From Candidatus Gastranaerophilales bacterium (GTDB lineage: Bacteria; Cyanobacteriota; Vampirovibrionia; Gastranaerophilales; Gastranaerophilaceae): 64,000 nucleotides of DNA. The stretch is taken from NCBI GenBank assembly GCA_944323625.1, contig CALUTD010000003.1, positions 62,001 to 126,000 of the forward strand, given 5' to 3'. Of this stretch, positions 4,170-48,456 are shown in pieces. Each line of letters opens with the position of its first letter. The first letter of the stretch is position 1. Below the pieces are notes generated by a model. The model did no database searches, had not been told where the DNA came from, and saw nothing but the letters and a program-made list of their open reading frames with translations. Position numbers and translations under genes: made by a program.

Positions 4170-4286
4170 TTGTTAATTTTAGTTTTATAATATCAAATAA
4201 GTTTTTAAGATTGATAAAACTATAAATATATGCTAATATAATCTTCGAAGGAGATAAAAAATACGAATAAAACTGTTTTATGCTAC

Positions 4287-4295
4287 GGGGGGGGG
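4287..4295 (+). repeat. Homopolymeric G9 tract in prepilin pseudogene leader
   Basis: Nine consecutive Gs in otherwise AT-rich DNA, flanked CTAC and TAGA exactly as at 47723. Runs of this kind change length by slipped-strand mispairing. At nine Gs the tract keeps the upstream ATA frame in phase with the prepilin helix. Confidence 0.9.
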
Positions 4296-4303
4296 TAGAA
4301 ACA

Positions 4304-4343
4304 GACTATTTTTTAAAAGTTATTTTCCTTTTAAAAAATAGTC
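4304..4343. repeat. Perfect 16-bp inverted repeat inside the prepilin pseudogene
   Basis: GACTATTTTTTAAAAG at 4304-4319 is matched by its exact reverse complement at 4328-4343 with an 8-base spacer. It sits between the G tract and the prepilin helix and carries the TAG stop. It has no U-tract of its own as a terminator and no target-site duplication that I could see. It could be a small inserted palindrome that inactivated the gene. Confidence 0.8.
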
Positions 4344-4721
4344 ATTTACGCTTTCTGAAGTATTAATTACTCTTGTCGTCATTGGTATCATTGCAGCTAT
4401 AACAGTGCCGATGATTTTAAATTCCTTACATAACCAAGAATATAAAACGGGATATAAAAAAGCATATTCTGATTTAAGCAATGCAATTTTGAAAAGTGTT
4501 GCACTGGGAGAATTTCCTGAGCGAAACAATAAATTTGATAAAAAAGCAGCAGAACAATAATGGAATATATTAAAACAAAAATATTATATAAGTGTAACAA
4601 ACCGCCTTGTTATTATAAATCATGGTTATTATAAGTCTGACGTTTTATATTATAGCGGTAAAATATACATGGATGACAAATAATAATTATTACAGCTATA
4701 ATAAAATACAGGAGGTTTTTT

Positions 4722-7997: not shown

Positions 7998-8024
7998 TTT
8001 TTTTTGGGGGGGGGGGAAAAAAAA
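7998..8024. repeat. T8-G11-A8 compound homopolymer tract
   Basis: Eight Ts, eleven Gs (8006-8016) and eight As in succession, in the 139-base gap between the last glycan gene and the DUF1858 gene. It is not inside a recognisable ORF, unlike the two pilin G tracts. The T and A arms could pair, with the Gs in the loop. Its length is likely unstable. Possible effects are on transcript end or stability, or none. Confidence 0.85.
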
Positions 8025-47645: not shown

Positions 47646-47675
47646 TTGCTATAATCAAGGAATATATGATAATAT
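47646..47675 (+). promoter_or_regulatory. Promoter of the phase-variable prepilin gene
   Basis: TTGCTA at 47646-47651 and TAATAT at 47670-47675, 18 bases apart, with TGA before the -10 (extended -10). The start of transcription would fall near 47682, giving a leader of about 17 bases that contains AGAGGAG. Confidence 0.45.
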
Positions 47676-47698
47676 GAATCAAAAGAGGAGAATTATTT

Positions 47699-48456
47699 AT
47701 GAAAAAATCAAATAATTACTACGGGGGGGGGGTAGACCAGGGTGTGAATTTAAAAATTTTTTCTCTCTTAGTTGCTTTACATTTACACTTGCGGAAGTAT
47801 TAATTACCCTTGTTGTTATAGGTATCATAGCTGCAATTACAGTTCCTGTTGTAATGGCAAACCACAGAAAAACAGAAACATCTGCTAAATTAAAAAAGTT
47901 TTATTCAACAATGTCTAATGCTGTCAAACTTGCAGAAACCGAAAATGGTTTAGAAAGCTGGGAATGGAAAAATATTGGTAATAATTGTTATGGTTCTAAT
48001 CAAATAAATACATTTGAAAATTACTTGGCAAAACATATAATTTATACAACAATAGGAAATGCATCTGAAATATTAGACTTCTCTGTTGTAGACAAACTTA
48101 ACACTTATGGTTATGCATTAGGCAGCGACCCGGTTGTTTATTTGAATGATGGCTCATATTTTATAATAGCAGAATGTGATAATAGTATCTTGTATGATGT
48201 AAATGGAGAAAAAGATCCAAATGATTTAGGACGTGACATTTTTCCTTTTAGCATTCTATGGCGAGATATAAATAAAAACTATCCTCATTTTTATCCTACT
48301 GTTTATAGTACATCTCATCCAGACGGAAGTTTAGAACTTGGTAGTTATACTAGAGAAGAAGCAATTCAACAATGTAAAACAAACAGAATGCTTTGCTCAT
48401 ATCTTTTACAACTTGACGGTTGGGAATTTAAAGATGATTATCCTCTAAGATTATAA
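47699..48456 (+). CDS. Type IV prepilin-like gene, poly-G switched, out of frame here
   Basis: AGAGGAG and ATG at 47699 begin MKKSNNYY, then a G10 tract (47723-47732). In this sequence the ATG frame ends after 34 codons at 47801-47803. With 11 or 8 Gs it would join the frame that holds the prepilin helix: FTLAEVLITLVVIGIIAA, Glu at +5, then KLKKFYSTMSNAVKLAE and a C-terminal domain with DVNGEKDPNDLGRDIFPF, for 252 residues in all (11 Gs). A stop at 47713 blocks any earlier start in the helix frame. The rest of the ORF is intact, so the gene looks like an OFF phase variant rather than a dead gene. Tract miscounting in assembly is the main alternative. Confidence 0.82.
47723..47732 (+). repeat. 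Homopolymeric G10 tract, putative phase-variation switch
   Basis: Ten Gs flanked CTAC and TAGA, eight codons after the ATG of the prepilin gene. Length modulo 3 decides whether the ATG reads into the prepilin helix (8 or 11 = in frame; 10 = out of frame). Confidence 0.9.

Follow-up and report, generated by a model that had tools for sequence, protein, structure and literature searches.

In Campylobacter, the poly-G and poly-C tracts that make up the phasome are mostly 9 (53%) or 10 (26%) bases long, and 5-81 such genes are found per strain (PMC6321876). For Neisseria meningitidis, tracts of 8 or more were found to be mostly variable in single colonies (PMC5084427). The pilC gene is among the phase-variable surface genes of this species. 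The gonococcal pilE/pilS system represents a large, mostly silent pilin repertoire with G-rich DNA nearby. In the literature we searched, no description of phase variation in the order Gastranaerophilales was found, in agreement with an earlier note on the locus described here, whose author knew of no such switching in the lineage.

This locus lies in a stretch of 64,000 nucleotides (hereafter the window) from the genome of a Candidatus Gastranaerophilales bacterium, and all its parts are on the + strand. A -10-like box (TGATAATAT, 47667-47675) is located 32 nt upstream of the ATG; 27/33 class A loci (defined below) have the same box at -30 to -32, and the match in the window taken alone is not above chance. 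It is followed by the ribosome-binding site AGGAG (47686-47690; GGAGATAAAATTATG is conserved across paralogues) and by the ATG (47699-47701) of a pre-tract leader, MKKSNNYY (47699-47722), for which the family consensus reads M-N/K-K-S-x-N-R-Y/H. The proposed switch, a tract of ten Gs (47723-47732), begins with a new codon, 24 nt or eight codons after the ATG. With ten Gs the frame of the ATG ends at a TAA stop (47801-47803), giving an OFF product of 34 aa (MKKSNNYYGGGVDQGVNLKIFSLLVALHLHLRKY). The pilin frame, an open stretch of 240 codons, is shifted by one base downstream of the tract, its codons starting at 47734, and n must therefore be 8 or 11 (5, 14 ...) for ON. It comprises a post-tract leader of 16 codons (RPGCEFKNFFSLSCFT, 47734-47781) and a mature type IV pilin-like protein of 224 aa (FTLAEVLITLVVIGIIAAITVP, 47782-48456), whose FTLAE begins with F at 47782 and carries Glu at +5, and whose frame ends at 48454-48456. 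No ATG, GTG or TTG occurs in the pilin frame between the tract and FTLAE at the window locus. The earlier note, made from the sequence alone, had described the ribosome-binding site, the ATG, the G10 tract and the stop, all of which held, exact to the base, as did its claim that the intact prepilin ORF is reachable with 8 or 11 Gs only. Its conclusion that the pilin is phase-variable and OFF in the given sequence is supported as the best reading, with the reservation that switching was not observed and the mechanism is inferred.

The window product matches TIGR02532 (NCBIfam) with 17.5 bits, above the cut-off of 16.3, and PF07963 below its cut-off only. It has the N-terminal motif of a prepilin, that is FTLxE with Glu at +5 and a long hydrophobic helix, and the AlphaFold2 model of the 224-aa product (pLDDT 91.5, pTM 0.86) shows a long N-terminal helix (3-55) plus a globular domain. 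The best sequence matches are solved pilins, in the N-terminal part; for the globular domain, a Foldseek search against the PDB gave nothing below E 0.001 and no clear relative. Prepilin peptidase is represented in the genome by one PF01478 match (E 9.9e-11). Of the features that a slipped-strand switch calls for, two are present at this locus, namely a frame-altering run (G10) between the ATG and the pilin ORF and a coding sequence that is intact in one frame.

The genome of about 2 Mb contains at least 118 G/C runs of 8 or more and 303 G8 words, and in the window 9 overlapping 8-mers were observed vs 0.17 G8 runs expected in shuffles; G runs at the level of the window are not due to chance. 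Tracts of the form YAC-G8+ occur 85 times genome-wide vs 0 for the reversed control pattern, with lengths of 8 (2 tracts), 9 (48), 10 (32) and 11 (3), and a further 19 and 14 tracts have other neighbours. The exact CTAC-G10-TAGA is present twice in the genome. By N_methyl matches, type IV pilin-like genes number 117, almost every one in an open frame, and a tract lies upstream of about 86 of them. Loci around tracts were extracted as stretches, and these, not the whole genome, underlie the locus-level analyses. Class A comprises 37 loci including that of the window, organized as ATG-7 codons-YAC-Gn-TARA-about 16 codons-FTLAE. Class C has a shorter leader remainder, with the tract beginning at the third codon position, and class D resembles class C but bears a C run, the G strand being the non-coding strand. 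In class B (about 25-26 loci) the leader and the tract make up a mini-ORF of their own upstream of the pilin, which has a separate ribosome-binding site and ATG, and an AT-rich hairpin followed by a TATAAT-like box lies between the two. Because the class B pilin has its own start, tract slippage would not shift its frame; the mini-ORF, conserved for example in L101, L110, L124 and L145 as MNKSxNRHGGG stop with a G9/G10 run, might act in attenuation or be a leader remnant.

Some single loci deserve mention. A second family copy in the window (4263-4560, + strand) has ACG for ATG, G9 at 4287-4295, a stop inside the leader (C3:66339-66404, one TAG) and an ORF cut after 71 codons; broken three ways, it is a rare true pseudogene among the copies. 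A G11 run at window positions 8006-8016 is intergenic and flanked by T and A runs, with no pilin nearby and no function seen. Three tandem pilin copies about 905 bases apart (L136-L138; G000:C22:3027-4845) have runs of 8, 9 and 9. The longest run seen, G9-T-G24 (L346; G160:C3:54-87), is at a contig start and possibly an assembly artefact.

For 59 standard leader-fused pilins, with the start before the run and the pilin after it, we computed the run length joining both: 54 are OFF and 5 ON. The length needed is n=2 mod 3 in 48, 0 in 7 and 1 in 4 loci, so that 48/59 need 8 or 11, while nearly all runs actually have 9 or 10 bases. Downstream of the tract, 36/37 class A loci are open in the pilin frame and the other two frames contain stops in 37/37 and 26/37, which indicates a sequence built to be open in one frame only. 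Internal starts as a way round the frame problem were rejected, as an alternative start codon in the pilin frame is absent in 49/60 loci. The shortage of ON loci has a binomial p of 8e-6, but such p-values overstate the case because paralogues share ancestry, and the OFF excess stems partly from descent, one leader being common to most class A loci; a stronger argument is that the pattern recurs in leaders that are unrelated. Loci of other registers might also avoid their ON length (n=10 in 5/7 vs 16/46, p=0.08), which is suggestive only. The pilin genes are very probably not dead: 59 of 61 ORFs are intact (158-246 aa), and dN/dS is about 0.15-0.3 in the few paralogue pairs with >60% identity, pointing to purifying selection; in more distant pairs dS is saturated and little can be said. 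Layout, frames, lengths, intact ORFs and the length differences between loci are thus direct observations. They broaden the view of the earlier note, which had missed both the genome-wide system and OFF as a systematic default, to ~60 paralogues with a shared design, found in relatives with other leaders.

We consider slipped-strand phase variation of a default-OFF pilin repertoire the best reading and a likely one, although switching in cells is inferred. Each of about 60 loci consists of a promoter-like box, ribosome-binding site, start, 7-9 leader codons, a run (G9/G10, sometimes C9/C10), the leader remainder and the pilin. Slippage during replication would lengthen or shorten the run by single Gs; at the commonest lengths, 9 and 10, the ribosome would leave the pilin frame and meet a stop (OFF), and at 8 or 11 the leader would be joined to the pilin (ON). 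Since the commonest lengths lie outside the ON register, the greater part of the repertoire would be silent, with few pilins expressed at any time. Extra Gly (or Pro) residues are inferred to fall in the leader, to be removed by the single prepilin peptidase, which agrees with the earlier view that length changes spare the mature pilin. Slippage in living cells, protein output and sparse expression are all inferences at present.

The relatives provide different leaders. In most pilins of G025, the rabbit-gut MAG CANPZP with the label Candidatus Gastranaerophilales, a C9 run is located in a different leader (ATG-GAA-AAT-AAG-CAT-CAA-ATC-TA-C9-GTGGCGG), and 31/31 fused pilins are OFF, 8 or 11 being needed. 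G008 has 7 OFF and 2 ON loci. In G177, from another genus, 24/25 scorable loci are OFF and 1 is ON, mostly with n=9 where 10 is needed. In nearly all poly-G loci of G177, the distance from start to tract is divisible by three despite varying leader sequence, which indicates that it is important for translation to run into the tract. Owing to an in-frame ATG nearer FTLAE in many G177 pilins (L314, L327 and L330 are without one), OFF is less certain and the frame test weaker there. A different, conserved leader (G9-CGACTCCTCTAAGTAGA) is seen in L302-L331 of this genome, and pairing of its CTCCTC with the ribosome-binding site upstream is possible. Across the family, several genera have many exact G9 runs and others have few. 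In viral contigs there was no match to the same locus, and two looser matches were unrelated.

Lengths differ between loci (8-11), and in two relatives also between contig ends that overlap within one assembly. The tandem neighbours L102/L103 of the window's genome share 40/40 upstream bases and have 9 vs 10 Gs. In G025, the overlap between the start of C41 and the end of C68 comprises 67+36 identical bases, with 9 vs 10 Gs, and in G026 the overlap between the ends of C16 and C24 comprises 67+40, with 9 vs 11. Most simply, each of these pairs represents a single locus that had two lengths in the sample; slippage in PCR or sequencing is another possibility, as are paralogues that are nearly identical, and the window locus itself is without such data. 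Lengths in G025 and G177 are very uniform, mostly 9. The starts of contigs G025:C41 and G026:C16, 67 nt before a run, can be read as a De Bruijn fork (k=77), but this was not taken as proof, since contigs of G079 have similar starts that are due to repeats.

The least explained part is the flank. On the G strand it reads CGCYAC-Gn-TA in the window's genome and G025, and C-G9-CGACT in G177, whichever strand codes for the pilin. Coding cannot account for a flank that is kept in either orientation, and the likely cause is therefore a constraint at the DNA level or a common origin through inversion. A bolder possibility is that the run belongs to a dedicated DNA element (CGCYAC-G9-TA; C-G9-CGACT) acted on by a specific factor, which might raise slippage, set the length at 9-10 or recombine leaders; if so, expression of one or few pilins out of about 60 would be near-exclusive.

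Runs also interrupt ORFs that, judged from translations only, resemble an aminotransferase (L057), an acetyltransferase (L153) and a glycosyltransferase (L205), as well as large secreted-protein-like ORFs (L041, L201); each would be full length with one G more or fewer. By analogy, such surface-type targets correspond to the spectrum of known phasomes. The G11 runs of L057 (G000:C4:6688) and L153 (G000:C4:8729) are about 2 kb apart, and both ORFs are full length with 10 Gs only; they might form a switchable sugar locus.

The alternative that survives best, although we consider it unlikely, is programmed slippage without DNA change, in which RNA polymerase or the ribosome slips on a fixed tract and yields a low, constant pilin output; for the ribosome this would be a +1 shift at GGG-TAR (9 Gs) or a -1 shift on G-GGG-GGG (10 Gs). 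In its favour, tracts are nearly always one slip away from the ON frame, G025 and G177 show n=9 with great uniformity, and class A loci with n=9 have a TAR stop directly after the run. However, the mix of 9 and 10 within the window's genome demands opposite shift directions, poly-G and poly-C mRNA versions stand side by side, which is odd for a codon-specific shift, the ON lengths 8 and 11 are also present, and length differs between the contig-end pairs. Phase variation itself has points against it: reads, a second strain of the species and expression data are absent, the uniform 9 in G025 and G177 also fits a fixed RNA- or translation-level device, and about 26 tracts of the window's genome are in mini-ORFs, where slippage would have no effect on the pilin frame.

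Very unlikely is a system of silent cassettes, in which leader and G run would be a recombination site moving an OFF gene into an expressed locus. About 60 mostly OFF pilins with shared leaders in one genome, the CGCYAC-G9-TA flank kept in both orientations, and the tandem L102/L103 with identical upstream and different downstream halves would fit this explanation. However, nearly every copy has its own ribosome-binding site, start and promoter-like box, and several loci are ON. The pilE/pilS arrangement, with promoterless, start-less silent copies and one expression locus, is thus not met, and no single expression site was seen. We likewise give little credit to an assembly or sequencing artefact with true lengths of 8 or 11 and all genes in frame, one of the outcomes that the earlier note had named as refuting its proposal. 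Homopolymers are error-prone and the sequencing platform of the genome is unknown, but an error would need to bias dozens of loci towards 9/10, lengths and frames are the same in independent MAGs of other samples, which have contig names in SPAdes style, and G177 needs 10, yet shows 9. That the genes are decayed, frameshifted remnants of a pilin expansion is all but excluded: a few copies are indeed broken (window 4263-4560; L133 and L134, which stop after 12-14 codons), but 59/61 ORFs are intact and dN/dS is low in the closest pairs.

If slipped-strand phase variation holds true, a gut-dwelling, non-photosynthetic relative of cyanobacteria invests a considerable part of a 2-Mb genome, with 117 pilin-like genes, in switchable pilins, and an ON frame set away from the commonest lengths, with silence as the default, would represent a testable design rule for contingency loci. 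The data suggest a silent wardrobe of surface fibres, single ones of which may be turned on by the length of a G run. The purpose is inferred: such switching would be a likely way to vary the surface that host, phage or neighbours encounter.

The system resembles the Campylobacter phasome in that G/C runs are mostly 9 or 10, lie early in surface-related genes and set ON and OFF by frame. In contrast to Campylobacter, one protein class, the pilins, bears most runs, the runs are more numerous (at least 118), the poly-G loci outnumber those of any strain in the cited survey (PMC6321876), and the ON register lies away from the two commonest lengths. With the homopolymeric-tract genes of N. meningitidis it shares pilus-related targets and, by inference, frame switching by slipped strands (PMC5084427); however, N. 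meningitidis switches accessory pilus and outer-membrane proteins, whereas here the targets are pilin-like subunits in dozens of copies. Like gonococcal pilE/pilS, it is a large, mostly silent pilin repertoire with G-rich DNA nearby, but its copies have their own start and ribosome-binding site and are silent by frame. While the kind of switching is thus known from Campylobacter and Neisseria, the lineage, the scale, the default-OFF register and the orientation-independent flank motif appear to be new.
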